A stretch of DNA of 64,000 bases from Nocardia farcinica (lineage in GTDB: Bacteria; Actinomycetota; Actinomycetes; Mycobacteriales; Mycobacteriaceae): contig NZ_LN868939.1 of NCBI RefSeq assembly GCF_001182745.1, forward strand, positions 1,736,001-1,800,000, written 5' to 3'. Positions 25,508 through 44,126 of this stretch are shown piece by piece. The first letter of the stretch is position 1; each line of letters starts with the position of its first letter. The notes under the pieces were generated by a model. That model was not told the DNA's origin. It did not search any database and saw nothing but the letters and a program-made list of their open reading frames with translations. The position numbers and the translations under genes are program-made.

Positions 25508-26584
25508 GTGAGTCTCACCCTCGGAATCGTCGGCCTGCCCAACGTCGGAAAGTCGACGCTGTTCAACGCGCTGACCAAGAACGACGTGCTGGCCGCGAAC
25601 TACCCGTTCGCGACCATCGAACCCAACGTCGGCGTGGTCCCGCTGCCGGACCCGAGGCTGGAGAAGCTGGCCGAGATCTTCGGCTCCGAGCGCATCGTGC
25701 CCGCCACCGTGTCGTTCGTCGACATCGCCGGCATCGTCAAGGGCGCCTCCGAGGGCGCGGGTCTGGGCAACAAGTTCCTCGCCAACATCCGCGAAGCCGA
25801 CGCCATCTGCCAGGTGGTGCGCGTGTTCGCCGACGACGACGTGGTGCACGTCGACGGCCGCGTCGACCCCGCCGCCGACATCGAGGTCATCGAAACCGAG
25901 CTCATCCTCGCCGACCTGCAGACCCTGGAGAAGGCCGTCGTCCGTCTCGACAAGGAAGCCAAGGTCAAGAAGGACCGCAAGCCCGTCGCCGACGCCGCCA
26001 AGGCCGCCCAGGAGATCCTCAACAGCGGAAAGACCCTGTTCGCCGCCCGGAACGAGGTCGACACCGACCTGCTCAAGGAACTGTCGCTGCTGACCATCAA
26101 GCCGTTCCTGTACGTCTTCAACGCCGACGAGTCCGTGCTCACCGACGAGGCACGCAAGGAGTCGCTGAAGGCCTCCGTGGCCCCCGCCGACGCGGTGTTC
26201 CTCGACGCCAAGGTGGAAGCCGAGCTCCTCGAACTCGACGACGAATCCGCCGCCGAACTGCTCGAATCCATCGGCCAGACCGAACCGGGCCTGCACGCCC
26301 TCGCTCGCGCCGGCTTCCACACCCTCGGCCTGCAGACCTACCTGACCGCCGGGCCCAAGGAAGCGCGGGCGTGGACCATCCACCAGGGCGACACCGCCCC
26401 GAAGGCCGCAGGCGTCATCCACACCGACTTCGAGCGCGGCTTCATCAAGGCCGAGATCGTGGCGTTCGACGACCTGGTCGAGGCGGGGTCGATGGCGGCC
26501 GCCAAGGCCGCGGGCAAGGTGCGGATGGAAGGTAAGGACTACGTCATGGCCGACGGCGACGTCGTGGAGTTCCGGCACTCGTAG
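25508..26584 (+). CDS. ychF: redox-regulated ATPase YchF, 3' end altered by integration
   Basis: An Obg-family P-loop ATPase that associates with ribosomes. The 358-residue protein has GLPNVGKSTLFNALTK (P-loop), the G2/G3 region DIAGIVKGASEGAGLGNKFL, NADE in place of NKxD as expected for ATP preference, and a TGS domain ending in GDVVEF. GTG 25508 lies nine bases after TAGACT (25493-25498), a likely -10 box, so the message may be leaderless. The protein ends VVEFRHS, whereas the usual actinobacterial ending, VVEFRFNV, occurs as intergenic repeats downstream. The gene is therefore probably an integration target whose last codons came from an inserted element. Confidence 0.96.
   Translation: MSLTLGIVGLPNVGKSTLFNALTKNDVLAANYPFATIEPNVGVVPLPDPRLEKLAEIFGSERIVPATVSFVDIAGIVKGASEGAGLGNKFLANIREADAICQVVRVFADDDVVHVDGRVDPAADIEVIETELILADLQTLEKAVVRLDKEAKVKKDRKPVADAAKAAQEILNSGKTLFAARNEVDTDLLKELSLLTIKPFLYVFNADESVLTDEARKESLKASVAPADAVFLDAKVEAELLELDDESAAELLESIGQTEPGLHALARAGFHTLGLQTYLTAGPKEARAWTIHQGDTAPKAAGVIHTDFERGFIKAEIVAFDDLVEAGSMAAAKAAGKVRMEGKDYVMADGDVVEFRHS
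26552..26584 (+). other. putative attachment site, copy A (3' end of ychF)
   Basis: The codons for DGDVVEFRHS and the stop. GTGGAGTTCCG is shared with downstream copies B and D; after it the sequence diverges (CACTCGTAG rather than CTTCAACGTGTAG). This is the expected look of a left junction, where the resident gene joins element-borne DNA. Confidence 0.7.
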
Positions 26585-26771
26585 AACAGCGAAAGGACGG
26601 GCTCGCAGTCCCGGCCGCACTCGGCGCAGGCCCGGTACGCCTCCCCGGGCCGCGCGGACCGCTCGGTCATGCACTCCAGTCCCGCCCCGAGCGCGTCTCG
26701 CAGCCATCTCCTTCGCAAAGACGCGACGAGTCCCCGCCGAGCGGGCAGGCACCCGCTAAGGAAAGCCGTTG

Positions 26772-26781
26772 TTTGCGCAAA
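26772..26781. promoter_or_regulatory. palindrome upstream of arsR-like gene
   Basis: TTTGCGCAAA is a perfect 10-bp palindrome 28 bases before the chosen GTG of the ArsR-family gene. It is placed where an autoregulatory operator would be. The binding is inferred. Confidence 0.4.
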
Positions 26782-26808
26782 GGACTGTTTGGAGGTACGG
26801 CGGGCCTC

Positions 26809-27156
26809 GTGACTCGAAGCGCACTCCCCGACCAGGATCTCGATGCGGCGTTCGCCGCGCTGGGCGATTCCACGCGCCGCCAGATCGTCGCTCGCCTGGC
26901 ACGCGGCGACGCCTCCGTACGCGAACTGGCAGCGCCGTTCGACATGACGCCGCAGGCGGTGTCGCATCACGTCGGGATTCTCCGGCGCTGCGGTCTCATC
27001 GAGCAGCGCATCGAGGCGCAGCGAAGGCCCTGTCGGCTGAACGTGCAGCGCATGCAGGAGCTCGCCGGGTGGATTTCCGAGCAGCAGCGCGAATGGCACT
27101 CACGGCTCGACCGGCTCGAAGAGCACATCGCGTCGATGACGAGGACCGACCGATGA
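26809..27156 (+). CDS. ArsR family winged-helix regulator
   Basis: A 115-residue protein. LDAAFAALGDSTRRQIVARL and the recognition region MTPQAVSHHVGILRRCGLIE are the ArsR pattern. There are no metal-binding Cys pairs, so it is of the type that sits with AHSA1/SRPBCC genes. The start is GTG 26809; a TTG at 26773 would extend it. Its stop overlaps the next start (ATGA). It is the first gene of a three-gene operon inside the ychF cassette region. Confidence 0.88.
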   Translation: MTRSALPDQDLDAAFAALGDSTRRQIVARLARGDASVRELAAPFDMTPQAVSHHVGILRRCGLIEQRIEAQRRPCRLNVQRMQELAGWISEQQREWHSRLDRLEEHIASMTRTDR

Positions 27157-27612
27157 CGTCTTGGTCGCGCCTCGACGGCGCGGAGCTGATCGCGACGCGT
27201 CACCTCGATGCGGATATCGCGCTGGTGTGGGAGGCCTTCACGACCCCGGCGCATCTTGCGGCCTTCTGGGGTGGGCGCCACGCCGCCGTTCCGGCGGACT
27301 CGGTGAGTGTCGACCTCCGCGTGGGCGGCCGCTTCGAGCTCCGCACGGTCGGGGGCCGACGGCGCGAGTGAGCTGATGTTCGTCTACGAAGCGATCGACG
27401 CGCCCCGGCGACTGGTGCTCACGGAACCACGGTCGGGAATCCAAACCGAGATCCGCCTCGACTCCACCGACGGCGGGACCAGCGTGAGGATCCGCCAACG
27501 GCGGCTACCGCCCCCGCTGCAGGCCGACAGCGCACGCGAGGGCCTGGCCGGAGTTCTCGACCAACTCGACGTTGTGACCAAACGAATCGCTGAATCCAGG
27601 AAGGGACGCTGA
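27153..27612 (+). pseudogene. SRPBCC/AHSA1-domain protein, broken by a one-base frameshift
   Basis: The first part (27153-27371) reads LDADIALVWEAFTTPAHLAA and WGGRHAAVPADSVSVDLRVG, then GGRFELRTVG before running out of frame. The second part continues in another frame with ADGASELMFVYEAIDAPRRL and on to ESRKGR at 27612. Removing one G from the G5 run at 27351-27355 joins them as RTVGADGASELMFVYE, a normal AHSA1 domain of about 152 residues. Either the gene is inactive or the run length is a sequencing error. Its flanks overlap arsR (ATGA) and the SnoaL gene (TGATG), so the operon structure is intact. Confidence 0.85.
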
Positions 27613-27965
27613 TGAGCGACCACGTACGCACTGTCGACCGCTACATGAAGGGATTTCGCCAGAGCGATCACGAGATGATCCTCGACTGCCTCACCGAGGA
27701 CGTCGTCTGGCGCATCCACGGCGTGCGCACCACCCGCGGCAAGGCCGAGTTTGACGACGAGATCGAAAACCCCGCTTTCGACGGCAGCTCCCGACTCACC
27801 TTGGAGCGCACCATCGAGAGCGGCGACGTCGTCGTGGCGACCGGCACGGGCGTCGCGCGCCACCGCGAAGCCGGGCCCTTCCACTTCGCCTTCAACGACA
27901 ACTTCACGTTACGTGGCGACTCGATCGCTGAGGTCGACTCCTACGTCGTTCCACTCAACACGTAG
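27612..27965 (+). CDS. SnoaL/NTF2-like domain protein
   Basis: A 117-residue cone-fold protein: VDRYMKGFRQSDHEMILDCL, TEDVVWRIHG, then strands ending GDSIAEVDSYVVPLNT. Such proteins are small cyclases, isomerases or ligand binders, and the substrate here is unknown. ATG 27612 overlaps the preceding stop (TGATG). Its last codons, GTTCCACTCAACACGTAG, resemble the ychF-end repeat (about 14 of 18 positions), which may be chance. No gene is seen between 27966 and 28254. Confidence 0.85.
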   Translation: MSDHVRTVDRYMKGFRQSDHEMILDCLTEDVVWRIHGVRTTRGKAEFDDEIENPAFDGSSRLTLERTIESGDVVVATGTGVARHREAGPFHFAFNDNFTLRGDSIAEVDSYVVPLNT

Positions 27966-28254
27966 CCATCCGCCAGGCCAGCTGCCTCCCTGGAAGCGGG
28001 AAGCCCGCGAGACCGGCAGCTGTCCACCGCTCAGGCACCGCTCTTGACCGGCCCGATCGCCTCGTCCAGCTCCCCGCGCAGACCGAGCGCCGACACCGGC
28101 CCGCCCCGGCCTCCACACCGGCCGCGGCCGCCGATCGATCCGGGTCTGATCCGACGCCCTCGCGGCGTGCGGCTCAATCCGCTGACGCGTAGAGCGCGGG
28201 GTCGACGTCCGTCCCCGACTCGCCGTTCCTCCGCCTTCGCCGCCCGTCTCGCCC

Positions 28255-28941
28255 TCAGGAGGGCGGGATCACCCGGTACTGCTGCTTGTTGTCACGGTCG
28301 CGGACGGCGACGCCCAGCGCCCGCAGCTCGTCGAGCGCGTCGTCGGCGGCACCGGTCCGCCGGTCCGCGAGGGCGCGCCCCCGGGCGCGGAGCAGGCCGT
28401 GCGCCCGGCTGTCGAGGTCGCCGCTGCCGTCGACCCACGTGCGGTACGCGCGCTCGTAAGGATCAACCTCCCCCTGCCACGGGTACCCGAATCCCTCGAA
28501 CGCCTGCCGCAGCCGCTTCACCAGCACTCGATCGGTCCGCGTGCGCGACACCTCGCCGCCCCGACCATCGGTGATGACGAGGTCGCGGCCGTCGGTGAAC
28601 ACTCCGGCGATCCGGTCCCGATCGATCAGCCGGCGCACGCCCTCCCGCTCGACCGTGACGCCCGTCTTGGCCACCTCGACGACGCCCACGTCGGTGCGCC
28701 AATGGCGGACGATCCAGATCCCGACGCCCAGACCAGCCAGTGTGAGCACCGGGATCGCCCACATCAGCGGCAGGCCGGCGGCCAGACGCAGCGGACCGGG
28801 GGCATCGCCGACCAGGGACAGCAGTCCGCTCACGGCCGGGTCGACCAGGAAAGCCGCGCCGAGCCCGGCTGCGGCACCGGCGACGCAGATGCCGACGATC
28901 CACGCGTTCGGGAGCGTGACCGTCGTGCGCTCCTCAACCAT
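28255..28941 (-). CDS. YqeB family membrane protein
   Basis: A 228-residue protein with two hydrophobic segments (residues about 12-40 and 58-82), then a PH-like domain (VAKTGVTVEREGVRRLIDRD, RIAGVFTDGRDLVITD) and a C-terminal helical part ending ALGVAVRDRDNKQQYRV, as in YqeB family proteins. I chose ATG 28941 because AAGGAG sits six bases upstream; a further ATG at 28962 is possible. It overlaps the end of the TetR gene, so the two are co-translated. Role unknown. Confidence 0.8.
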   Translation of the reverse strand: MVEERTTVTLPNAWIVGICVAGAAAGLGAAFLVDPAVSGLLSLVGDAPGPLRLAAGLPLMWAIPVLTLAGLGVGIWIVRHWRTDVGVVEVAKTGVTVEREGVRRLIDRDRIAGVFTDGRDLVITDGRGGEVSRTRTDRVLVKRLRQAFEGFGYPWQGEVDPYERAYRTWVDGSGDLDSRAHGLLRARGRALADRRTGAADDALDELRALGVAVRDRDNKQQYRVIPPS

Positions 28942-29548
28942 CGATGTCTCCTTGCCGTTCATGTGCGCCGAGGTATCGGAGAACGGTGCGCCGCAGCTCA
29001 GGCAGCGGCGAGTATCCCGACCTGGCGTTCAGATAGGCCGCGTCCACGATCGCTTGCAGCCACCTCGCCGTCTCGACCGGGTCGAGCTCGGCATCGATCT
29101 CGCCGTCGGCGATGCCTCGTGCGATCAGGGCCGCGAGACCGCCGGTGACCACCTCGGCCGTCTGCGCGACCACCGCAACCAGCTCAGGATCATGCTCGGC
29201 GCGCCGCAGCAGCTCGACGACCATTCCCGGTGCGCTCGCGTCGGCGGCGTCCTTGGCCAGCTCGTCGACCACTTCGAAGATTGCCGGCACTGGTGTGCGG
29301 CTGTGGACGTGCTTCGCGATCAGCGACTCCACGACGGGCAGATCGCGTTCGAAGACCGCCCGGAACACCGCCGCCTTGTCGGTGAAGTAGTAGAAGACAC
29401 TCGCCGCGCTGACACCGGCCGCCCGGGCGATGTCCGCCACGCTCGTCCGCTCATACCCCCGCGTTCCGAACAACCGGGCGGCCTCGACGACGATCTGCTC
29501 GCGCTTGCGCGCTACCCGCTCAGGGTCGACTCGCCGCACCGATACCAC
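28934..29548 (-). CDS. TetR family regulator
   Basis: A 204-residue protein. The N-terminal helix-turn-helix is REQIVVEAARLFGTRGYERT followed by SVADIARAAGVSAASVFYYF. The C-terminal two-thirds is the all-helical ligand domain. It starts at GTG 29548 or GTG 29539. A near-perfect palindrome lies at 29559-29572, directly upstream. It probably controls itself and the downstream YqeB gene. Confidence 0.9.
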   Translation of the reverse strand: MVSVRRVDPERVARKREQIVVEAARLFGTRGYERTSVADIARAAGVSAASVFYYFTDKAAVFRAVFERDLPVVESLIAKHVHSRTPVPAIFEVVDELAKDAADASAPGMVVELLRRAEHDPELVAVVAQTAEVVTGGLAALIARGIADGEIDAELDPVETARWLQAIVDAAYLNARSGYSPLPELRRTVLRYLGAHERQGDIDG

Positions 29549-29558
29549 CTACAATCAT

Positions 29559-29572
29559 TGACTGATCAATCA
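29559..29572. promoter_or_regulatory. TetR operator candidate
   Basis: TGACTGATCAATCA matches its own reverse complement at 12 of 14 positions. It begins 11 bases upstream of the TetR start codon, where autoregulatory TetR operators usually lie. Confidence 0.6.
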
Positions 29573-29931
29573 GACAGAGATTACCAGATGCCGGACCGCA
29601 CTCCGCCCGGAGTCCTCACGAGCGCAGCCTCCCCGACGGAGCGGCAGAGAATGCGGGGCGGTCCCTCCCCGGGCGGCGACCGCCGGCCGCAGACCGGCAG
29701 CCGGACAGTTCGAGCCCCGGTCCGTGCTCGACGTGATCGCCTCGCTCGACGACATGGCCGCCCGCGGCTACGTTGCCGACCCGCTTCTTCCTCGGCTCGT
29801 CCGATCACGCGCGCGACTCCGCGTTCTGACAGGGGCTGGCTCGCCCGCAGAGCCCGCGCGATCACAGTCGTGACACGCCCTGAGCTTCTACTGAAGCGTA
29901 CGTGCGCGAATCGTGTGGCATACTGAAGTTA
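29573..29931. other. intergenic stretch with a possible gene fragment
   Basis: No complete gene is recognised. From 29709 the plus strand reads FEPRSVLDVIASLDDMAARG and then YVADPLLPRL in a frame with G/C-rich third positions, without a start codon or homologue I know. It looks like the tail of a lost gene. The promoter of the next gene is at the right end: CATACT about seven bases before ATG 29932. Confidence 0.4.
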
Positions 29932-30690
29932 ATGTCCTTTCCGAATCCGCGGCTCCGGACGCGGATTCAGGAAGTCACAGTGATCCCAGACTCACCCACC
30001 GACGCGTTCGGCTCATACGCGGCGACGCTCAACGAAATCATCGTCGACGTCGTGCGGACCCGGCACGGCTACGCCGCCGACGCTCACCAGGCCGCGCATA
30101 CGCGGAACACACGCGGATACTCGACACTGTGGCAGGACCTGCTCGTTGACGTGCAGGACGCTTTCGTAGACCGAGGCCACGACCTGCACCGGCTTCCTCC
30201 GGCCGGCCACAAGGTGCCGGTCGTCAACGTCTGCATCGTTTACGTGTGGCGCGTTCCCGCTTCGGGTGATCCCGTGCACTTCGCGGCGAGCCCGATGAAG
30301 ATGGCCTGCTTCAACGCGCCGCTCCCGGAGCCGACGCTGTTCGGCCTCGATTTCATGGGCCCATCGACGCCGACCGCCGTGCAGTCCGGCTCGGAACCTG
30401 AGCAGTCGGCTGGCCTGGAGGCAGTGATGGGCGCGGTGGACGGCAAGATGCCGGTCGTGCTCGTCAAGGTCTACTCCTCGCCGTGGCAGCTGCAGGCGAT
30501 CGATTGGGCAGTTGCCGAGCTCGACCGAGAGACAGGCGAGGTCAGTTACCGCGGTGAGGAGACCATCTGGCAGGCAGAACCTGCGACCGAATCCGACGCG
30601 TCCGACGTCGAGTCGTTCAGCGACGGTGAGCCGATCGAGCCCGTCGTCGAGCCGCGCAAGCAGGAGGGCTTGGATCCGGATGCGCGATGA
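29932..30690 (+). CDS. hypothetical partner of an ImmA/IrrE-type regulator
   Basis: A 252-residue soluble protein with no recognised domain. The centre has hydrophobic strands (VPVVNVCIVYVWRVPA, MPVVLVKVYSSPWQL), with a Trp-rich helix at WAVAELDRETGE and an acidic tail. ATG 29932 follows CATACT by seven bases, suggesting a leaderless transcript. Its end overlaps the downstream XRE-peptidase gene by 11 bases, so the two make a coupled pair of the size and order common in toxin-antitoxin or phage-defence pairs. By position it would be the effector of such a pair. Confidence 0.65.
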   Translation: MSFPNPRLRTRIQEVTVIPDSPTDAFGSYAATLNEIIVDVVRTRHGYAADAHQAAHTRNTRGYSTLWQDLLVDVQDAFVDRGHDLHRLPPAGHKVPVVNVCIVYVWRVPASGDPVHFAASPMKMACFNAPLPEPTLFGLDFMGPSTPTAVQSGSEPEQSAGLEAVMGAVDGKMPVVLVKVYSSPWQLQAIDWAVAELDRETGEVSYRGEETIWQAEPATESDASDVESFSDGEPIEPVVEPRKQEGLDPDAR

Positions 30691-31801
30691 AACGCCGAGC
30701 CTGTTCGACCTATCCGGCTCCGGGCAGACCCACGGTCGCTTCGAGCCGGCGCGCCTGACCCAGGCCCGGGTCCGCAAATCGGTGACCAAGACGGAGCTCG
30801 CCACCGAAGTCGGCGTCTCCGCTGCGGCGATCGGGCAGTACGAGGCCGGCGTCAACTCCCCCCGTGCGGACGTCGTCGAGCGTTTGGCTAAGGCGCTGGA
30901 CGTCCGCCCGGGGTTCTTCAGTGTCGGTCGCCCGCTCGCGCGCATCGACACGGTGAACGCCCACTTCCGCAGCCTGCGCTCGGCCCGGGTGAGCGATCGG
31001 CAGAAGGCGCTGGCCACGGCGACGCTGGTGTGGGAACTGACCTTCGCGCTCGAGCGCCACGTCCGGCTCCCCGAGGTCGATCTACCCGAGGTCCCCACGG
31101 GCAGCTCGCCTGCCGAGGCCGCCGCGGTTCTGCGACGTCACTGGGGTCTGCCGGATGGCCCGGTCAAGCACTTGGTCGCCACAGCCGAGTCGCGCGGCAT
31201 CGTCGTCGCGGTCCGCCCGCTCGCCGAGATCGACGCAGTGGACGCCTTCTCCGTCGTCATCGTCGACCGTCCGATCGTCATCACGACACCGCGTCGGACC
31301 GAGAACGTGTTCAAGCACCGGTTCTCGATCGCGCACGAGATCGGGCACTTACTCTTGCACTCCGACTCCGGCGAGCACCGCGCTGCAGTCGAGAACGAAG
31401 CAGATGAGTTCGCCGCGGCGTTCCTCACTCCCGCTGCGTCCATGGACGCGGCGCTCCCGCAACGGCTCGACCTCGCTGCGCTCGATCGGCTGGGCCGGAC
31501 GTGGGGCGTCTCGCCGCACTCATTGGTTCGCCGGATGGTCGAGCGCGGACGCACTACCGAGTCCTCTGCTCGGAGGGCTTACCAGCGCCTGGCGATGGTG
31601 GATGACCCGGTGGCCGATCCGTCGAGCGCCTACCCGGGCGAGGTGCCGACGCTGCTGAGGAAGGCGGCCGAACTCGCTGCTGACCACGGTGCGGGCGTAT
31701 CCGCGCTGGCCGAAGCGCTCAAGATCAGCCCTCCGCAGGTCCGCGACCTCCTCGGGGAGGTTGATCAGCGCCCGGTGCTGCGGCTCGTCGCCGACGGGTG
31801 A
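30680..31801 (+). CDS. XRE regulator with ImmA/IrrE (M78) metallopeptidase domain
   Basis: A 373-residue protein. Residues 26-80 are a Cro/C1-type helix-turn-helix (TKTELATEVGVSAAAIGQYE). Residues 170-285 are a zinc peptidase with HEIGH (H219, E220, H223) in HRFSIAHEIGHLLLH and a downstream Glu-rich EVENEADEFAA-like segment (here ENEADEFAAAFLTP). Family members cleave repressors or act as antitoxins; RosmerTA is one phage-defence pair I recall using such a protein. ATG 30680 lies inside the end of the preceding gene. It is in the first segment of the ychF cassette region. Confidence 0.88.
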   Translation: MRDETPSLFDLSGSGQTHGRFEPARLTQARVRKSVTKTELATEVGVSAAAIGQYEAGVNSPRADVVERLAKALDVRPGFFSVGRPLARIDTVNAHFRSLRSARVSDRQKALATATLVWELTFALERHVRLPEVDLPEVPTGSSPAEAAAVLRRHWGLPDGPVKHLVATAESRGIVVAVRPLAEIDAVDAFSVVIVDRPIVITTPRRTENVFKHRFSIAHEIGHLLLHSDSGEHRAAVENEADEFAAAFLTPAASMDAALPQRLDLAALDRLGRTWGVSPHSLVRRMVERGRTTESSARRAYQRLAMVDDPVADPSSAYPGEVPTLLRKAAELAADHGAGVSALAEALKISPPQVRDLLGEVDQRPVLRLVADG

Positions 31802-31892
31802 GGGCCCGCACTTCGGGATCGCCCGAAGCCGTCGTCTGCGTGGTTGGATGGGCGGATCCGGCGACCTTCCATCCAGAACGTTCGCTAACCGC

Positions 31893-31925
31893 GGCGACGT
31901 GGTGGAGTTCCGATTTAACGTCTAG
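31893..31925 (+). other. putative attachment site, copy B
   Basis: Reads GDVVEFRFNV and stop, the canonical end of actinobacterial YchF, but 5.3 kb beyond ychF and not part of any gene. It has the same orientation as ychF. Confidence 0.8.
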
Positions 31926-31958
31926 CGTTAATGACGCGGACCGTTATACGATGGTGTC

Positions 31959-32240
31959 GTGATCAGATCGTTCGGCGACAAGGAGACCGAACGGCTGTGG
32001 CGTCGTGAGCGGGTGCGGTCACTCGATCCGAGGATCCATAGGGTTGCACTTCGCAAACTTCGTCAGGTGGGATCCGCTGGGTCTCTTGAGGACCTTCGCA
32101 TCCCGCCTGGCAACCGACTCGAAGCACTCAAGGGTGATCGGGTGGGGCAGCACAGCATTAGGATCAACGACCAGTGGCGGATCTGTTTCCGATGGACGGA
32201 CGCCGGACCGGAGGAGGTGGAGATCGTTGACTACCACTGA
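31959..32240 (+). CDS. higB: HigB/RelE-type toxin
   Basis: A 93-residue protein with the RelE/HigB fold pattern: MIRSFGDKETERLWRRERV, LRKLRQVGSAGSLEDLRIPP and GQHSIRINDQWRICFRW, ending VEIVDYH. HigB toxins are ribosome-dependent mRNA nucleases. It starts at GTG 31959, nine bases after the -10-like TTATAC (31944-31949). The promoter therefore begins only 18 bases after attachment copy B, and the segment carries its own promoter. The gene overlaps higA. Confidence 0.92.
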   Translation: MIRSFGDKETERLWRRERVRSLDPRIHRVALRKLRQVGSAGSLEDLRIPPGNRLEALKGDRVGQHSIRINDQWRICFRWTDAGPEEVEIVDYH

Positions 32241-32529
32241 CAAGATCGCGCCGATTCACCCCGGAGAAGTCCTCATGGAGGATTTCATCGAGGGCTTCGG
32301 GATCACGCAGAACAAACTCGCCGTGTCGATCGGAGTGCCACCTCGGCGGATCAACGAGATCGTGCACGGCAAGCGGGGGGTCACCGCAGACACCGCGCTG
32401 CGGCTTGCGAAGTACTTCGGTACCTCGGCGGAGTTCTGGCTCAACCTGCAGAGTCACTACGAGCTGGATCGTGCTGAGGACATCGCTGGGGAACAGATTG
32501 CTGCAATCGTTCCACTGGGTGCTGCGTGA
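32227..32529 (+). CDS. higA: HigA family antitoxin
   Basis: A 100-residue XRE protein with IHPGEVLMEDFIEGFGITQN, the helix-turn-helix KLAVSIGVPPRRINEIVHGK and RLAKYFGTSAEFWLNLQSHY, the standard HigA layout. The start is TTG 32227, 14 bases inside higB, with a GGAGGAGG-type purine run just upstream. It should neutralise HigB and repress the operon. Confidence 0.93.
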   Translation: MTTTDKIAPIHPGEVLMEDFIEGFGITQNKLAVSIGVPPRRINEIVHGKRGVTADTALRLAKYFGTSAEFWLNLQSHYELDRAEDIAGEQIAAIVPLGAA

Positions 32530-32628
32530 GTGTCATCCTCTCGGGTCGTTTGATCTGCGCCTCGGAGGAGCAATCGGCAGTGGTCCGGCGGCACCTGCCT
32601 CGGCATGTGGAACTGACAAGGGCTGAAC

Positions 32629-32655
32629 TCGGTGGAGTTCAGGTTCAATGTATAA
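32629..32655 (+). other. putative attachment site, copy C
   Basis: Reads SVEFRFNV and stop (TCG GTG GAG TTC AGG TTC AAT GTA TAA). Third positions differ from the other copies while the coded residues are kept. It lies 100 bases after higA. Confidence 0.8.
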
Positions 32656-32694
32656 ATGACCCTGGTCAGAAGGGTGTCTGAGTCGTTCTCCCGT

Positions 32695-32721
32695 GTGGGT
32701 GAGTTTCACTTCAACATCTGA
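32695..32721 (+). other. putative attachment site, degenerate copy C2
   Basis: Reads VGEFHFNI and stop (GTG GGT GAG TTT CAC TTC AAC ATC TGA). It lies only 39 bases after copy C and in the same orientation. The spacer between the two holds no gene, so it may be an emptied or very small segment. Confidence 0.6.
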
Positions 32722-32792
32722 GCGCCGCGTTTCCGGCTGGAACGAAACGACCCATGCTGCCGAGCGGATTCTGGCACGTAGCCTTCACTGAT

Positions 32793-33575
32793 ATGGACGA
32801 TCTGATCCGGACTGTTCTCGACAGAGTGCTCGCAATCGACCCCGGCGGGATCGTCGGGGTGTACCTCTACGGCTCCAGTACGTCGACGGGTCTCGGCCCG
32901 GAGAGCGATGTAGATCTGCTGCTGGTGACGCGCAGATCGTTGACGCCTCAAGATCGGGCATCGTTGATCTCCACGTTGCTCGGGCTCTCGGGGTGGAAGG
33001 GGCATGCCGAGGCGTTCCCGGAAGTCGCGAGCCGTCGCCCGCTTGAGGTGACGAGCTTGGTCACGGCTGACCTCAAGCCGTTGGTCGCTGCGCCGTGGCG
33101 TGACTTCCAGTTCGGGGAGTGGCTCAGGGGCGACTTCGTCCAGGGCTATGTGTCCGAGCCGGAGCGCGATCCGGATGTGGTGATCCTGCTGGCGACAGCT
33201 TTGGCATCGCACCGGGTGCTGCACGGGGCGGCGCTGGACACTCTGGTCACTGATGTGCCCTTCGCGCTCCTGAAGGACGCGCAACTGGCTGCACTGCCGG
33301 CGCTCGTCGACGATCTGGATGGCGAGCCGCGCAATGTTCTTCTGACGCTGGCGCGTGCGCTTCATACCGTGGAGACCGGAGCGATAGTCGCCAAGGATCA
33401 GGCGGCAGCTGTTGCGGCGAGGCGCGTCGATCCCGCTGGGGCGGATCTGCTTCTTGCTGCCGCTCGAGAGTACCTAGGCGAGGGGCAGGTCGACTGGGAT
33501 CGTGAAGCGAGTCAGGTGTCGTCTCTGGCGCAGTCGTTGATCACGCTGATCCAGCGAACATCTGCGGAGGCGTGA
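32793..33575 (+). CDS. AadA-like aminoglycoside nucleotidyltransferase
   Basis: A 260-residue protein, the length of ANT(3'')-type enzymes. The nucleotidyltransferase motif is YLYGSSTSTGLGPESDVDLL (Gly27-Ser28, Asp39, Asp41). The C-terminal AadA helical domain has FGEWLRG, DPDVVILLATALASHR, RNVLLTLARALHTVETGAIV and AKDQAA. It would adenylylate an aminoglycoside such as streptomycin or spectinomycin; the substrate cannot be told from sequence. The start is ATG 32793 (MDDLIRTVLDRV); an upstream in-frame ATG at 32754 is less likely. It is the only complete gene between attachment copies C2 and D. Confidence 0.88.
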   Translation: MDDLIRTVLDRVLAIDPGGIVGVYLYGSSTSTGLGPESDVDLLLVTRRSLTPQDRASLISTLLGLSGWKGHAEAFPEVASRRPLEVTSLVTADLKPLVAAPWRDFQFGEWLRGDFVQGYVSEPERDPDVVILLATALASHRVLHGAALDTLVTDVPFALLKDAQLAALPALVDDLDGEPRNVLLTLARALHTVETGAIVAKDQAAAVAARRVDPAGADLLLAAAREYLGEGQVDWDREASQVSSLAQSLITLIQRTSAEA

Positions 33576-33635
33576 ACGTACACACGGACATCACCGGGCA
33601 ACCAGCTGTGCGGATCCGGTGACAGAGGTTGGAAC

Positions 33636-33815
33636 GTGCCTGAACGTGGTTGTTTGCGGTTCGACGTTGAATCGTCGAGTGACCCGCTCGTCTGGACGGT
33701 AATAGAGGAGTTCGTGGACCGAGCAGCGCTGGATGCGCATCAAGTGCGTGTTCGCTCGAGCGAATGGGGGAATGCTACCGCGGGCATCGCCCGAGATTGT
33801 GTGATCGAGGACTGA
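33636..33815 (+). pseudogene. C-terminal half of an antibiotic-biosynthesis-monooxygenase (ABM) domain protein
   Basis: The plus strand reads VPERGCLRFDVESSSDPLVW, then TVIEEFVDRAALDAHQVRVR and SSEWGNATAGIARD, the second half of a YgiN/ABM domain (EPGCLRFDV, EEF-D-AALDAH). The N-terminal strand and helix are missing and the piece is 59 residues, against about 100 for the family. GTG 33636 could start it, but the fold would be incomplete. It is probably a remnant trapped in the segment before copy D. Confidence 0.7.
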
Positions 33816-33881
33816 CCGTGACGGGCAAAGCACCTGCACTGATTCCATTTTCGGTGCGCTGACAGCCTTACGTGTGGGCAC

Positions 33882-33908
33882 GTGGTGGAGTTCCGCTTCA
33901 ATGTGTGA
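33882..33908 (+). other. putative attachment site, copy D
   Basis: Reads VVEFRFNV and stop (GTG GTG GAG TTC CGC TTC AAT GTG TGA) outside any gene. It is one of the two copies closest to the expected ychF sequence. Confidence 0.8.
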
Positions 33909-33944
33909 GGCGATTGGCTGCCTATCGCGTTGACCAGCGGGGGT

Positions 33945-34529
33945 TCAGTCGTCCAAGAGTGGGTTGTATCTCATGCTCAGCCCTCGTTCGATCGCCGCGA
34001 GGCCTCCGGCGATGATGACGAGGAGGTGCTGCCAACCCGCGAGGCGGATCGCCGGGATCTCGAATACTGGGAGCCCGACGTACGACGTCAGCAGACCGAC
34101 GAGGTTGATCAGCTGAGGAAGCTCGAGCAGAAGCACCCCCACGACGATGAGGGTGGCGACGATTCCGACTGCTCGACTGGTTGCGGGGTGCTGTCGGTCG
34201 AGGTTCGCTCGCCAAGCCTCGGCGGTGCCCGCAGCAGGGGTCAGCGGCTGGGTCTCCCGTGCCTTCGCCTCGCGGATGCGTACGTACTTCATCCCGAGCT
34301 TTGCGACAGCTGCCTCGATGTGCGCGCCGTCTTCGATGGCGAAGGAGGCCTTGCGTCGCGTTGTGTCGACGAGGCGACCGTCGCGGTACAGGGAGATGCG
34401 CTCATCGAGATCGAGGTACCCGGAGTCGACGACGTAGTGATGTCCGTTCCGGTGCACCTCGAATCTCCCCCGGATGAGGCCGGCTCCCCACCGGAGGGGC
34501 CTCAGCGTCGTTGATGATTGCGTGGTCAC
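33945..34529 (-). CDS. membrane protein with two C-terminal transmembrane helices
   Basis: A 194-residue protein. Residues 1-110 are soluble (WGAGLIRGRFEVHRNGHHYV, ERISLYRDGRLVDTTRR). Two hydrophobic segments follow, at about 118-150 (AVGIVATLIVVGVLLLELPQ) and 165-180. The start is GTG 34529, which overlaps the TetR stop as GTGA, so the pair is co-translated. No family was recognised. It is the likely target of the adjacent TetR regulator and the main cargo of the segment between copies D and E. Confidence 0.75.
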   Translation of the reverse strand: MTTQSSTTLRPLRWGAGLIRGRFEVHRNGHHYVVDSGYLDLDERISLYRDGRLVDTTRRKASFAIEDGAHIEAAVAKLGMKYVRIREAKARETQPLTPAAGTAEAWRANLDRQHPATSRAVGIVATLIVVGVLLLELPQLINLVGLLTSYVGLPVFEIPAIRLAGWQHLLVIIAGGLAAIERGLSMRYNPLLDD

Positions 34530-35122
34530 GATGCGACTCCTCGAAACATGTCGTCGATGGATGTCTGCAGCAGCGCGAGCGCCCGATCGGGCGAGGACTG
34601 GCCGAGGAGAACCTGCCCGCTGAGCCCTTCGGCCGTAGCAAGGAGTCCCTGAAGAGTGCCTTCGGTGTTGTTCGAGTCGAGGCGGATCCTGCTGGATTCC
34701 AGGAGGCGTTCGAGGAAGGCGAGAAGTTCGGCGTGCCCCTCGCGGATCCTCGTCGCCAGGATGTCCTCCGTGAGCGCCAGCGACTCGAACTGCGCCACCA
34801 CCCGCAGTCGTCGCATCGCTGTGTCGTCGGTGGGAATCATCGCGCGCAGGACGGCGGTCAACACCTGTTCCGGCGCGGCGGCTTCCCCGACGGCCGTGGC
34901 CACCTCTGCGGCAACGGCGTGCTGTACCGAGTCGAAGGCCGCGAGCATCAGAGCAGTGCGGTCGGGGAAGTAGTGCTGAACCCGGCCGGGCGAGACCCCA
35001 GCAGCGGCAGCAACTCGTCGCACCGTCAACGCGCCGGCACCTTCCTCCGCCACCAGTACGCACGCTGCGGCAGCGATAGCGCCGCGCACTGTCTCGTGGT
35101 CCCGCCCCACACCTCGGCTCAC
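34526..35122 (-). CDS. TetR family regulator
   Basis: A 198-residue protein with a helix-turn-helix at residues 10-55 (ALTVRRVAAAAGVSPGRVQH, YFPDRTALMLAAFDS) and a helical ligand domain. AGGAGG lies five bases before GTG 35122, which I prefer to the in-frame GTG at 35128, where spacing would be too short. A palindrome at 35137-35152 probably serves as its operator. It controls itself and the coupled membrane protein gene. Confidence 0.9.
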   Translation of the reverse strand: MSRGVGRDHETVRGAIAAAACVLVAEEGAGALTVRRVAAAAGVSPGRVQHYFPDRTALMLAAFDSVQHAVAAEVATAVGEAAAPEQVLTAVLRAMIPTDDTAMRRLRVVAQFESLALTEDILATRIREGHAELLAFLERLLESSRIRLDSNNTEGTLQGLLATAEGLSGQVLLGQSSPDRALALLQTSIDDMFRGVAS

Positions 35123-36417
35123 TGGCACCTCCTAATCGATACGAGTGTATCGGATTGCGAGGCAGGTGTGCCAGATGTTCGTCCGTGCCGGAACTCGGTC
35201 GAGTTCCGCTTCAACGTGTAGTCCGATGGTGCGGTGAATCGGGCGATTGCCCACAGGAGCAGCCCCGACGCCGCATAGCCCGCGCCGAGCCAGCACGACG
35301 CCGCCCAGCCCCACGCGCTGTATGCCCAGGTCGTGGTGATCGCGCCCAGGGCGGATCCGAGGGAGTAGAACGCCATGTACGCCCCGATGACGGCGGTGGC
35401 GCGGTCGGGATGGGCGGTGGTCAGCAGGTGTTGGCTGCTGACATGGACTGTTTGGACGGCGAAGTCGAGCAGGATGACGCCGAGGACGAGCAGCCACAGC
35501 GTTCCTTCGATCCGGGCGGTGAGCGCCCAGGACGCGGTGAGCAGTGCGAGTGCGCACCCGGTGCTCGCCTGCGCGTGACCTGAGTCTGCCCATCGGCCGG
35601 CGCGGGCCGCGCCGAGCGCTCCGGCCAAACCGGCCAAGCCGAACATGCCGATCTGCGTGGTGCCGAGGTTCCACGGCTCCGCGCCGAGCGGGAGGGCGAG
35701 CCCGCTCCACAGGGTGCCGAAGGATGCGAACAGGAAGAAGGCGATCAGCCCTCGGCTCAGGAACAGCCGGTCGGTGCTCGCGAGTCGCACCATCGAGCCG
35801 ACCACCTGCCGGTATCGCCGGCCGGGCGTTCTGTGATCCGGGTCGAGTGTGGCGTGGACGGTGTAGGCGAGGACCGCGCACGACAGGGCGAGCAGGGCGT
35901 AGCCGACGCGCCAGCCGACCGTGTCGCCCAGCACGCCTGCCAGGACGCGAACGCCCAGGATGCCGAGCACCACACCGGAGGTGACGGCGCCGATGGTGCG
36001 CCCTCGCTCGCTCGGTGCGGACACGGCCGCGGCATAGGCGACGGTCACCTGGACAACGACCGCGAACAGCCCCGCGATCGCCAATCCGGCCACGGCCACG
36101 ACACTGTTCGGGGCGGCGGCGACGACCGCGGCGCCCCCGCCGGTCAGCACCAGATGCGTGCTGATGAGCCGACGCCGATTCATCACGTCGCCGAGCGGAG
36201 TGAGCAGGACGAGGCCGATGAAGTAGCCGACCTGACCGGCGGCGGCCAGCACACCCAGCGTCTCGTGCGCGACCGCCAAGTCGGCTCCGACCGCCGCCAG
36301 TACCGGCTGCACCGCGTAGACCGTCGACACCGCGACGGCGCAGACCAACGCCAAGACGAATCGCTGCGTTCCCGCCACTTCGGTCACCGTGCCCTTCGAA
36401 TCGGTAGCAAAATGCAA
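35119..36417 (-). CDS. MFS transporter with an altered C-terminal tail
   Basis: A 432-residue protein with 12 hydrophobic segments and the MFS loop motif GDVMNRRR after helix 2, of the drug-efflux (arabinose-efflux-like) type. After helix 12 the tail reads TLKRNSTEFRHGRTSGTPAS, which is the antisense of attachment copy E plus the edge of the neighbouring segment. The last 20-30 residues are therefore not native to the family. It is divergent from an HxlR regulator with a 51-base gap, so the two share control. The start is ATG 36417; a GTG at 36387 is possible. Confidence 0.9.
   Translation of the reverse strand: MHFATDSKGTVTEVAGTQRFVLALVCAVAVSTVYAVQPVLAAVGADLAVAHETLGVLAAAGQVGYFIGLVLLTPLGDVMNRRRLISTHLVLTGGGAAVVAAAPNSVVAVAGLAIAGLFAVVVQVTVAYAAAVSAPSERGRTIGAVTSGVVLGILGVRVLAGVLGDTVGWRVGYALLALSCAVLAYTVHATLDPDHRTPGRRYRQVVGSMVRLASTDRLFLSRGLIAFFLFASFGTLWSGLALPLGAEPWNLGTTQIGMFGLAGLAGALGAARAGRWADSGHAQASTGCALALLTASWALTARIEGTLWLLVLGVILLDFAVQTVHVSSQHLLTTAHPDRATAVIGAYMAFYSLGSALGAITTTWAYSAWGWAASCWLGAGYAASGLLLWAIARFTAPSDYTLKRNSTEFRHGRTSGTPASQSDTLVSIRRCQ
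35137..35152. promoter_or_regulatory. TetR operator candidate
   Basis: CGATACGAGTGTATCG has perfect six-base arms around a four-base centre. It begins 15 bases upstream of the TetR start codon. Confidence 0.65.
35195..35221 (+). other. putative attachment site, copy E (right end of array)
   Basis: Reads SVEFRFNV and stop (TCG GTC GAG TTC CGC TTC AAC GTG TAG). It is the most G/C-like copy in codon use and the one farthest from ychF, so it may be the original chromosomal 3' end displaced by insertions. The convergent MFS gene reads through it in antisense. Confidence 0.8.
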
Positions 36418-41670: not shown

Positions 41671-42846
41671 TCAGTATTCGAGACGAATGAAGTCGGCCAG
41701 TTCGCGCATGTCGGCGGTGAGAGTTCGTCGGCCCTCGACAACGGCGCCGAGGATGTCGCGGGCGTAGCGTTGCTGGACCAGCCATTCCGGGGCGGTGGCG
41801 CGCACCTCACGCAGGATGGCGACGGCCTCGGTGTATTGACGAAGCTGGGTGTGGGCCAGGGCGATGTCCAGGCGGTGTCGCAGGCGGCCCGCCGCGGTCG
41901 GCGAGAGAACCGCAGTCGGAAGTCCCTCCGCGATCGACAACGCCTGGCGAGGTTGTTCGGCGATGACCGCGCATTCGGCACTGGCCTGTGCGACGGTCAC
42001 CGGACCGAAGAGCCGGTTCGGGTTCGGGTCGTAGAGCACCTCACGCCCGACTCGCGCCGCAGCCGCCCGCGCCAGAGACAGGGCGTCGGCTGTGGCGCCC
42101 GGCGAGTTGTCGCGGACGCCGACGTTCGCGACGTACAACCACAGGCGACCCCACAGGGCGAGCTGACTCGACGTCGCGGTCGAGAAGCGTGGTTCGATGT
42201 CGTCGGCCCATCTCACCGCCAGCTCGCGAGCTGGCGCCAGATCGCCCTGCCGCAGCAGCGACCAGACTCCGACGTTCACCGCGGCTGCCGCGATTCCGCG
42301 CTCCGGCGCGGTGTCCACTGCTCGGTCCACCGTCAAGCTCGCGACCTCGAACTGCCGGTTCTGGACCAGCATCCAGGCGACCAGGCTCAGCAGGCGCGCA
42401 CGAATGGCGCGGCCTTCGTGGTCGTCTAGGGTTTCGGCGTCGTTGAGAAGGCCCGGTAGAACCGCCGCGATGTCGTGATAGCGGTGCGCGTCGGCCATCG
42501 GCATGAGTGCGCGATAGGCCGCCTCCACACCGCTGACGGTCGGTTGATCATCGACGTCGTCGGCACGGGTGGGTGTGACGAGCGCGCGCCGCACGGGTTC
42601 CCACAGGTTCGATGTGTTCGGGTCGGCGTGCTCGGTATCGGTCTGCCCGGCCTGCAACAACGAGGTTCGAACACCCAGGGCGACCGCGAGCTTGCGCATC
42701 GTGTCGAGCCGTGCCGATGGGCGCTCGCCCTGCTCGAGCTTGCGGATGAGCGACACCGACAATCCCGCGCAGTCGGCGAGTTCGCGTTGTGTCAGACCGC
42801 GCCGCTTACGAACCGATCGCAGTCGCTCCCCGAGGTCCTGGCCCAT
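41671..42846 (-). CDS. XRE family regulator, paralogue 1
   Basis: A 391-residue protein. Residues 5-60 are the helix-turn-helix (RLRSVRKRRGLTQRELADCA, GLSVSLIRKLEQGERPSA). The remainder is an all-helical TPR-like domain. It is strikingly similar along its whole length to the next gene upstream (both end ARDILGAVVEGRRTLTADMR, ELADFI-LEY), so the two arose by tandem duplication. Such regulators in Streptomyces and Nocardia often respond to signalling peptides or butenolides; no ligand can be named. Confidence 0.85.
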   Translation of the reverse strand: MGQDLGERLRSVRKRRGLTQRELADCAGLSVSLIRKLEQGERPSARLDTMRKLAVALGVRTSLLQAGQTDTEHADPNTSNLWEPVRRALVTPTRADDVDDQPTVSGVEAAYRALMPMADAHRYHDIAAVLPGLLNDAETLDDHEGRAIRARLLSLVAWMLVQNRQFEVASLTVDRAVDTAPERGIAAAAVNVGVWSLLRQGDLAPARELAVRWADDIEPRFSTATSSQLALWGRLWLYVANVGVRDNSPGATADALSLARAAAARVGREVLYDPNPNRLFGPVTVAQASAECAVIAEQPRQALSIAEGLPTAVLSPTAAGRLRHRLDIALAHTQLRQYTEAVAILREVRATAPEWLVQQRYARDILGAVVEGRRTLTADMRELADFIRLEY

Positions 42847-42947
42847 GTTTCGAGGCTACGACTATGCGGACTCCTGCGCGCTTGATCCGCGAACGCCGAC
42901 GGGCTCAGGGCGAGATGAACGCGAATCGCCCTTGCTGTAGCGGCGAT

Positions 42948-44126
42948 TCAGTATTCGAGATGAATGAAGTCGGCCAGTTCGCGCATGTCGGCGGTGAGGG
43001 TTCGTCGGCCCTCGACGACGGCGCCGAGAATGTCGCGGGCATAACGTTGCTGGACAATCCATTCCGGGGCGATCGCGCGAACCTCGCGCAGGACGGCGAC
43101 GGCTTCGCCGTAATGACGGAGCTGGGTGTGGACGTTCGCGACGTCCAACCGGTGTCGCAGGCGATTGCCGATGGTCGCCGCCGGGACGGCGGTCGGGAGA
43201 GCTTCGGCGATCGTCAGAACCTGCCGGGGTTGCTGGGCTGTGACGGCGCATTCGGCGGTGGCCTGGGCGACGGTGATCGGTCCGAAGGTTCGATGGGGCA
43301 GGCGGTCGTAGATCATCTCCCGGCCGATCCGCACGGCTGCCGAACGAGCCAGCGACAACGCGTCGGCGGTGGCGCCCGGGGAGTTGTCACGGACACAGAC
43401 GTTGGCAACGTACAACCAGAACCGGCCCCACGGCGCCAGCCGGCCCGGCGTCGCGGTGGAAAATCGGGCGGGTTCGAGGTCGTCGGCCCACTCGACCGCC
43501 AGGTCGCGAGCCGCCGCGAGGTTGCCCTGGCGCAGGTGCGACCAGATCAGCGAGTTGATCGCGCCGACCGCGATGCCGCGTTCCGGCGCGGCGTCCACCG
43601 CGCGATCCACTGTCATCGCCGCGACGTCGAACTGGCGGTTGCCCACCAAGAGGAACGCGGCGAGGCTCAGCAGGCGGGCGCGGATGACTCGGCCCTCGTG
43701 ATCGTCGAGCGTCTCCGCGTCGGCGAGCAGGCCCGGCAGCACCTGGGCGATGTCGCGGTAGCGGTGGGCATCCACCAGCGGCGCCAGCGCTCGAACGGCC
43801 GCCTCGACACCCCGGCTGGTCGGAGGATCGTCGGCGTCGTCGGTGCGGACCGGGACAACCAGTGCTCGCCGCACCGGCTCCCACAGGTTCGAGGTCTCCG
43901 CGTCGGCGTGCTCGGCGTCGGTGTGCCCGGCCTGCAGGGCCGAGGTTCGCACGCGCAGTGCCACTGCGAGCTTGCGCGCCGTCTCCACCCGCACGTTCGG
44001 CCGGTCCCCCTGCTCGAGTTTGCGGATCAGCGACACCGACAGACCTGACGCGTCAGCGAGTTCCCGTTGCGTCAATCCGCGCCGTTTGCGAACCGAACGC
44101 ACCCGCTCCCCGAGATCACCGCCCAT
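42948..44126 (-). CDS. XRE family regulator, paralogue 2
   Basis: A 392-residue protein with the same plan as the downstream paralogue (RVRSVRKRRGLTQRELADAS, GLSVSLIRKLEQGDRPNV). The TPR-like phrases AAFLLVGNRQFDVAAMTVDR and WLYVANVCVRDNSPGATADA are shared almost word for word. The start is ATG 44126. The 101-base gap to paralogue 1 contains a short repeat of the 3' end pattern (GATTCAGTATTCGAGATGAA), consistent with recent duplication. Confidence 0.85.
   Translation of the reverse strand: MGGDLGERVRSVRKRRGLTQRELADASGLSVSLIRKLEQGDRPNVRVETARKLAVALRVRTSALQAGHTDAEHADAETSNLWEPVRRALVVPVRTDDADDPPTSRGVEAAVRALAPLVDAHRYRDIAQVLPGLLADAETLDDHEGRVIRARLLSLAAFLLVGNRQFDVAAMTVDRAVDAAPERGIAVGAINSLIWSHLRQGNLAAARDLAVEWADDLEPARFSTATPGRLAPWGRFWLYVANVCVRDNSPGATADALSLARSAAVRIGREMIYDRLPHRTFGPITVAQATAECAVTAQQPRQVLTIAEALPTAVPAATIGNRLRHRLDVANVHTQLRHYGEAVAVLREVRAIAPEWIVQQRYARDILGAVVEGRRTLTADMRELADFIHLEY

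Follow-up and report, generated by a model that had tools for sequence, protein, structure and literature searches.

Downstream of ychF in Nocardia farcinica lies a row of segments with different cargo that are separated by copies of a ychF terminus. This row was examined in a window of 64,000 nucleotides (positions 1,736,001-1,800,000 of contig 2, NZ_LN868939.1, of a 6.46-Mb genome; coordinates below are those of the window), and comparison with related genomes makes it likely that the stretch 26564-35221 is a tandem cassette array, inserted serially at the 3' end of ychF through site-specific recombination by a family of large serine recombinases (LSRs) with the domains PF00239 and PF07508. 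Site-specific integration had been proposed in the original prediction, which was made from the letters of the window; it is supported by cargo that varies among Nocardia relatives and is bounded by the repeat, by cassette-free joins, and by an LSR family linked to ychF. The site of insertion, the boundaries of the units and the linkage between recombinase and site are evident from this comparison of genomes.

The repeats predicted behind ychF are real. Four copies of GTSGARTTYMGNTTYAAYGTNTRR, all on the + strand and each ending in a stop codon, lie within 8.6 kb (Table 1), and a slightly shorter pattern, GTSGAGTTCMGNTTYAAYGT, has four forward and no reverse matches in the whole genome, with none for a control pattern. 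Measured against the ychF end that is typical of the genus, three of the window's copies have 3 mismatches and one has 7. The resident gene had been taken to end VVEFRFNV as well; it actually ends VVEFRHS, so that the repeat is shared over its first half only, the resident end and the downstream copies having only about GTSGTGGAGTTCCG in common, and no copy of the last 27 bases of the window ychF is found within 6 mismatches in the next 9 kb. Nor is the degenerate copy claimed at 32695 secure, since with 8 of 27 mismatches it is no better than a match inside higA at 32425; shuffled sequence yields 0.005 matches as good as this. As a control, 3 of 110 ends of open reading frames (at least 200 aa) in the window have a copy with at most 6 of 27 mismatches in the next 9 kb, the 110 including spurious overlapping frames as well as the ychF end itself, and the lone close control copy, with 1 mismatch, results from an ordinary tandem duplication of a gene.

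The comparison used the ychF end and up to 19.7 kb of downstream sequence of 140 further Nocardia genomes, out of 149 in the sample besides that of the window (one had no ychF match). Addition of the window and removal of the misaligned L054 gave a scanned set of 140 loci, 2.435 Mb in total, with less than 1 kb of downstream sequence in five of them; loci, genomes and genera are labelled L, G and g, respectively. After exclusion of two truncated loci (L130, L145), 112 of the 138 readable loci have a ychF tail of RFNV-stop, and the remaining 26, among them the window, end differently, for example in SGLASGKK, SGVASPSKNK or HGGASGSGGKK. Several of these non-FNV loci possess an FNV end kilobases downstream (17,072 bp in L064, 4,661 bp in L080 and 9,195 bp in L090). 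L111 and L148 have the tail codons CAGGTTCAACGTCTAG at ychF in common and differ in the downstream junction and the sequence behind it; on this comparison, the start arm moves together with the cassette.

Copies of the repeat are strongly directional in this set: 50 forward copies have at most 3 mismatches (29 are exact, and the window's four are included), compared with 2 on the reverse strand of the same loci, both with 3 mismatches, and none for the reversed pattern. At least one downstream junction is present in 41 of the 140 loci when junctions of the SGLASGKK type are counted. Segments are often short, with 13 of 47 being under 1.5 kb, and none of these short ones gives a tblastn match with the LSR. 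In the family as a whole (401 genomes, tallied from a table), at least two copies, all on one strand, occur in 37 genomes belonging to genera g1, g3, g4, g9, g14, g23, g27 and g29, and one further genome has one copy per strand; in the 20 of the 37 for which positions are available, the copies stand side by side on a single contig, within 7 kb. The same plan is seen in ten short stretches that were chosen from other genera for having copies, with spacings of, for example, 204, 835 and 626 bp.

Particular cassettes recur as complete units. L095 and L110 are 96.5% identical over positions 1-2139, which run from the stop of ychF through the final base of the junction, and share nothing adjacent beyond it, while L111 and L148 are 98.0% identical over 1-2410 and likewise end at the junction. 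Both cassettes (2.1 and 2.4 kb, respectively) are shared by different species with differing flanks, and no LSR match was found in either; the cargo identified in L095 or L148 comprises HxlR, RibD_C, MerR and VapBC genes. Joins that lack the cassette are seen in some species. Behind its junction, L137 corresponds to L095 from 4 bp past the stop (93%, 1344 bp), as does L111 behind its second junction to L095 from +1 (92.8%, 1385 bp), L094 to L066 from +12 (93%, 811 bp), L114 to L115 from +78 (95%, 621 bp) and L148 to L132 from +204 (96%, 2056 bp); others have larger offsets, and some of the flanks may themselves be cassettes.

Toxin-antitoxin genes are recurrent cargo. The start of the window's HigBA cassette is found at seven places in six records, namely the window, L173, L200, L196, L252 (Phycicoccus elongatus) and, twice, L268 (Propioniferax innocua), a count that leaves out L185, where the match is a resident ychF end lacking HigBA, and L001 and L002, which repeat the window; one of the starts has 1 mismatch and two have 2 mismatches. 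Upstream of it lies ychF in L173 and L200 and different DNA in the rest. By eye, only a HigA-like frame comes after the start in L252, HigB in L196 is without its beginning, and one of the L268 sites is without the usual GT arm. Sixteen of 137 downstream regions, that of L183 among them, encode a VapC at least 86% identical to the L183 protein; where a junction follows, the distance to it from the end of VapC is 26-30 bp in 7 loci and 106-109 bp in 3. VapBC pairs were seen at the extreme end of cassettes in L093, L095, L110, L111, L118, L121, L140, L148, L151 and L183. In Mycobacterium tuberculosis, vapBC32 presumably lies behind ychF (Rv1112), which would fit a cassette.

The LSR family is present in 9 of 150 Nocardia genomes, and the two proteins tested (from L099 and L064) both contain PF00239 and PF07508. 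Four of the nine genes have a ychF-end copy at most about 50 bp away (G164, G205, G219, G288), two are within 20 kb downstream of ychF (G158, G184), and two are on other contigs in genomes where ychF stands at a contig end (G224, G225). LSRs of other families are common, being found in 124 of the 150 genomes, and among the matches listed only the ychF-linked family stands behind ychF. Elements with an attL in ychF and an attR at the far end are found in L064, L069, L099, L202, L209, L252, L272 and others, and in L069 and L099 the LSR starts just before the far junction. In L268, ychF is followed by what appear by eye to be type I restriction-modification genes and then by an LSR frame that is without its first part; six ychF-end copies bound further segments there, including HigBA and, by eye, a RelBE-like pair.

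A broad scan of one genome per species (84,980 species) found relatives of the LSR at 73 loci, most of them organism-named and some from metagenome-assembled genomes (MAGs); L211 and L212 among them are apparently mirror-image copies on one MAG contig. The locus includes ychF in 35 of the 73, a ychF-end copy lies at most 160 bp before the LSR start in 21, and one or the other holds for 48. The tail is of a non-FNV type in 34 of the 35 ychF genes at LSR loci, the native tails of those families not being established. In a tree of 69 of 78 sequences (9 fragments shorter than 380 aa were dropped), 34 of 42 rows are ychF-linked in one group, and a weakly supported 16-row group that includes five phage rows is without any ychF link; the linkage label requires 10 changes on the tree, compared with 21.4 in shuffles. 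Near-identical LSRs are found across actinobacterial families (L222/L223, L231/L238, L233/L241/L245), a pattern that suggests recent transfer. Carriage on plasmids was considered and rejected, there being no LSR match in 72,556 plasmid records at an E value of 1e-40.

The junctions themselves look like serine-integrase sites, the usual appearance of which is a partial mirror symmetry. Dyad symmetry around the GT averages 4.99 of 10 positions for 87 unique junctions; the corresponding means are 2.71 in nearby control sequence and 3.46 at resident ychF ends. In copy 4 of the window, the symmetry takes in nine bases to either side. Crossover would occur at the GT inside ...GACGTS-GT-SGAGTTCCG..., and the last ychF codons and stop of the incoming unit would replace the resident terminal codons (FNV-stop or, for instance, SGLASGKK-stop). 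As every cassette brings a ychF terminus with its stop, ychF would always be completed. The cassette would finish with an arm that partly mirrors its own start, and one of the FNV type would rebuild the target site, which makes repeated insertion possible. We infer both the exact base of the crossover and the order in which the cassettes were inserted. Large elements would bear the LSR, and the small cassettes without it (about 0.7-2.4 kb) would be moved in trans or left behind; it is the exactness of the shared ends that points to movement in trans. Because no cognate LSR was found in the N. farcinica genome, the array is probably immobile there unless a helper element arrives.

Several observations weigh against this account. 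One recombinase family had been expected in carrier genomes; it is present in relatives but the window's genome has no LSR of the ychF-linked family (its 2 PF07508 and 17 PF00589 matches all lie outside the window), and LSR carriers are far rarer in Nocardia than loci with junctions (9 of 150 against 41 of 140). The LSR of G256 (contig 8, 173148-174584) is away from ychF, on a contig without that gene, and 25 of the 73 LSR loci are without a ychF link, 6 of these being cut by a contig end before the LSR start. Since 10 changes are needed on the tree, ychF linkage is clustered but does not form one clean clade. Empty sites, likewise predicted, exist as cassette-free joins in some species but not for the window's own distal flank, of which no cassette-free relative was found in the 140-locus sample. 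Finally, LSR elements (L064, L069, L099) have end arms unlike those found in many recombinase-free cassettes, and the latter could therefore depend on another recombinase.

The scarcity of the LSR could also mean that only large LSR-bearing elements were ever inserted, the small segments being leftovers of internal deletion that do not move themselves. This would suit the absence of the LSR from many array genomes, the composite, fragment-containing look of the first segment of the window, and the existence of composite cassettes such as that of L139, where the L095 cassette breaks off after its initial 1373 bp. However, the recombinase-free cassettes of L095/L110 and L111/L148 are whole, with both ends exact, in species with different flanks, and the start of the HigBA cassette is found in several families with differing surroundings. 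Independent deletions would not yield identical units, and decay of this kind is an unlikely explanation. Equally unlikely is a separate, unrecognised recombinase as the mover of the small cassettes, with the LSR merely using the same gene end. The differing arms would be explained, as would the many arrays (most of them) without an LSR, whereas the GT core and dyad symmetry of the junctions are those expected of serine-integrase sites, and the row of L064 combines LSR elements with LSR-free segments, as does that of L268, where the LSR frame is incomplete. Tyrosine integrases were rejected as the agent: queries from 17 loci of the window's genome (16 of the 17 frames complete) matched just 1 of 137 downstream regions, that of L172, which has no junction.

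Segments might also be shuffled without any site-specific enzyme, by homologous exchange between short repeats or by natural transformation, and L153, in which at least 45 bp of ychF precede a downstream copy, has the form that a homologous duplication would take. At most joins, however, identity extends over only about 11-24 bp, breakpoints fall repeatedly at one position, and many families show linkage of the LSR to the site, which makes this explanation very improbable. The two alternatives that the original prediction had itself raised, decayed duplicates of ychF and a vertically inherited block, have next to no probability, for although the copies resemble a gene end and keep a stop codon, most of those printed have no visible ychF upstream (L153 and L160, the latter with a degenerate stretch, are the exceptions), and relatives differ in cargo and copy number and include cassette-free joins.

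The closest known systems to the ychF array, understood as the product of LSR-mediated insertion, are the staphylococcal and Enterococcus cassette chromosomes (SCC and ECC) at rlmH. The available part of one account describes ccrAB, insertion at the rlmH 3' end, direct repeats, dyad symmetry of the attR, several attR sites per locus and variable cargo (PMC6222049). The likeness extends to a large serine recombinase, a target at the 3' terminus of a conserved gene, several attR sites per locus, variable cargo and direct repeats that show dyad symmetry (stated likewise for the ECC sites in that part of PMC6222049, and found at the ychF junctions relative to control sequence). The same part gives ECC a size of 21-78 kb (PMC6222049), whereas the short Nocardia segments counted above are LSR-free and under 1.5 kb. 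The target there is rlmH and here ychF, the setting here is the phylum Actinomycetota, and the LSR of L099 scores 68.9 bits against CcrB (cut-off 900), 31.8 against CcrC (900) and 27 against CcrA (700).

Integrons are rows of small recombinase-free units that are joined at repeats of the same orientation, and toxin-antitoxin cassettes are found among them. The ychF arrays resemble them in having small recombinase-free cassettes at a single site, joined at repeats of one orientation and with toxin-antitoxin cargo, but the site is the end of a protein gene and not attI/attC, the genes lie in both orientations, and the linked enzyme is a PF00239+PF07508 serine recombinase rather than the tyrosine recombinase IntI. 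None of the genome's 17 PF00589 matches lies in the window and a single downstream region of 137 was matched, the IntI model itself not having been run. The prediction that the array is integron-like in logic and not in att sequence stands.

LSR relatives occur in 17 phage records. Actinophages, for example those of Microbacterium and Mycobacterium, have serine integrases of the same superfamily as the LSR, with at most 49% identity over part of the protein. The five phage rows of the tree, however, fall in the group without a ychF link. Five examined phage integrase regions are without the exact half-motif GTSGARTTYMGN, one having a match with 1 mismatch, and a phage origin of the cassettes was rejected on the ground of these regions. 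In cis-mobilisable elements and tandem accretion, non-autonomous att-flanked segments are moved with a helper. The known cases are islands of many kb, whereas the ychF units that recur between species measure about 0.7-2.4 kb.

Among the papers listed from the open-access full-text literature, outside which most subscription papers and all bioRxiv preprints fall, none concerns a recombinase that targets the ychF end, and the listings were complete where ychF was a required term; the original prediction likewise knew of no such system at ychF. A pneumococcal prophage site adjoins ychF, the gene end not being specified in the available part of the source (PMC8637289), and ychF serves as a gene for multilocus sequence analysis in what is available of another (PMC5726852).

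The balance tips slightly towards a wider proposal, namely that a serine-recombinase cassette system extends through the phylum Actinomycetota, with ychF as its sole platform, replacement termini, rebuilding of the site by FNV-type cassettes and tiny cassettes that circulate between families in trans, as a functional counterpart of the integron. If this is true, the end of ychF is where small cassettes land in Nocardia and its family and where LSR elements land in many further families of actinobacteria, a platform common to both, and the unrelated toxin-antitoxin pairs and single enzymes directly behind ychF are accounted for. A new pair of LSR and target would also be gained, cassettes could be located in genomes by a precise rule, and the movement of recombinase-free cassettes in trans would become testable.

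Within the window array, no recognisable recombinase had been predicted, and none is found among the 15 reading frames of the region or by tblastn with the LSR. The predicted first segment of 5.3 kb is real as an interval reaching to copy 1, but it is doubtful as a single unit because its IrrE module (29890-31788) matches, at 74% identity, a block 246-2138 bp behind ychF in L137; from this comparison it is probably a composite of several fused or decayed cassettes. The order of the Abi_2 remnant and the IrrE module (29696-31788) is swapped relative to L137, as if circularly permuted or as if two cassettes had fused. The AHSA1/SRPBCC gene at 27153-27612 is seemingly split between two overlapping frames, its Pfam match spanning 52-123 of 125 profile positions. 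Segment 2 is the HigBA cassette (730 bp), segment 3 (1253 bp) holds an AadA/ANT(9)-like gene that scores under the curated cut-offs, and segment 4 (1313 bp) holds a TetR gene and a protein without a family match.

Table 1. Features of the ychF locus and the array behind it in the N. farcinica window.
Feature	Position	Strand	Basis or remark
ychF, target gene	25508..26584	+	YchF-GTPase_C Pfam match; tail VVEFRHS-stop, genus-typical VVEFRFNV-stop
Resident junction, attL-like	26564..26584	+	GT core and GGAGTTCCG, then non-FNV ending
Segment 1, 5.3 kb	26585..31901	+	ArsR, AHSA1/SRPBCC, SnoaL, YqeB-like, TetR, module of unknown protein and HTH-IrrE (HTH, helix-turn-helix)
Remnant of Abi_2 gene end	29696..29875	+	70% match to related L137 cassette
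HTH-ImmA/IrrE protein	30680..31801	+	PF06114 and PF01381; spr1629-type repressor/antitoxin match below cut-off
ychF-end copy 1, start of HigBA cassette	31902..31925	+	start sequence also in L173, L196, L200, L252, L268
HigB-like toxin gene	31959..32240	+	PF05015
HigA antitoxin gene	32239..32529	+	TIGR02607 above cut-off
ychF-end copy 2, start of AadA-like cassette	32632..32655	+	genome pattern search
Possible degenerate copy, not secure	32695..32721	+	8/27 mismatches
Aminoglycoside nucleotidyltransferase-like gene (AadA/ANT(9)-like)	32754..33575	+	PF13427; ANT(9) 195.5 bits, cut-off 340
ychF-end copy 3, start of TetR/membrane-protein cassette	33885..33908	+	genome pattern search
Protein without Pfam or NCBIfam match, membrane protein by eye	33945..34529	-	profile scans
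TetR-family regulator	34526..35128	-	PF00440
ychF-end copy 4, last junction	35198..35221	+	with left arm forms dyad CGGAACTCG-GT-CGAGTTCCG

A second repeated gene end in the window, at 41671-44126, was considered as a candidate att repeat and rejected as a tandem gene duplicate; the genes at 41671-42846 and 42948-44126 on the - strand are adjacent, similar HTH genes (XRE-type by eye) of 391 and 392 aa with near-identical ends. At the distal end of the array, the frame of a major facilitator superfamily (MFS) transporter (35119-36417, - strand) crosses the last ychF-end copy antisense (TLKRNSTEFR), and the junction thus encodes the end of that protein too. Several loci contain antisense reading frames of this kind.

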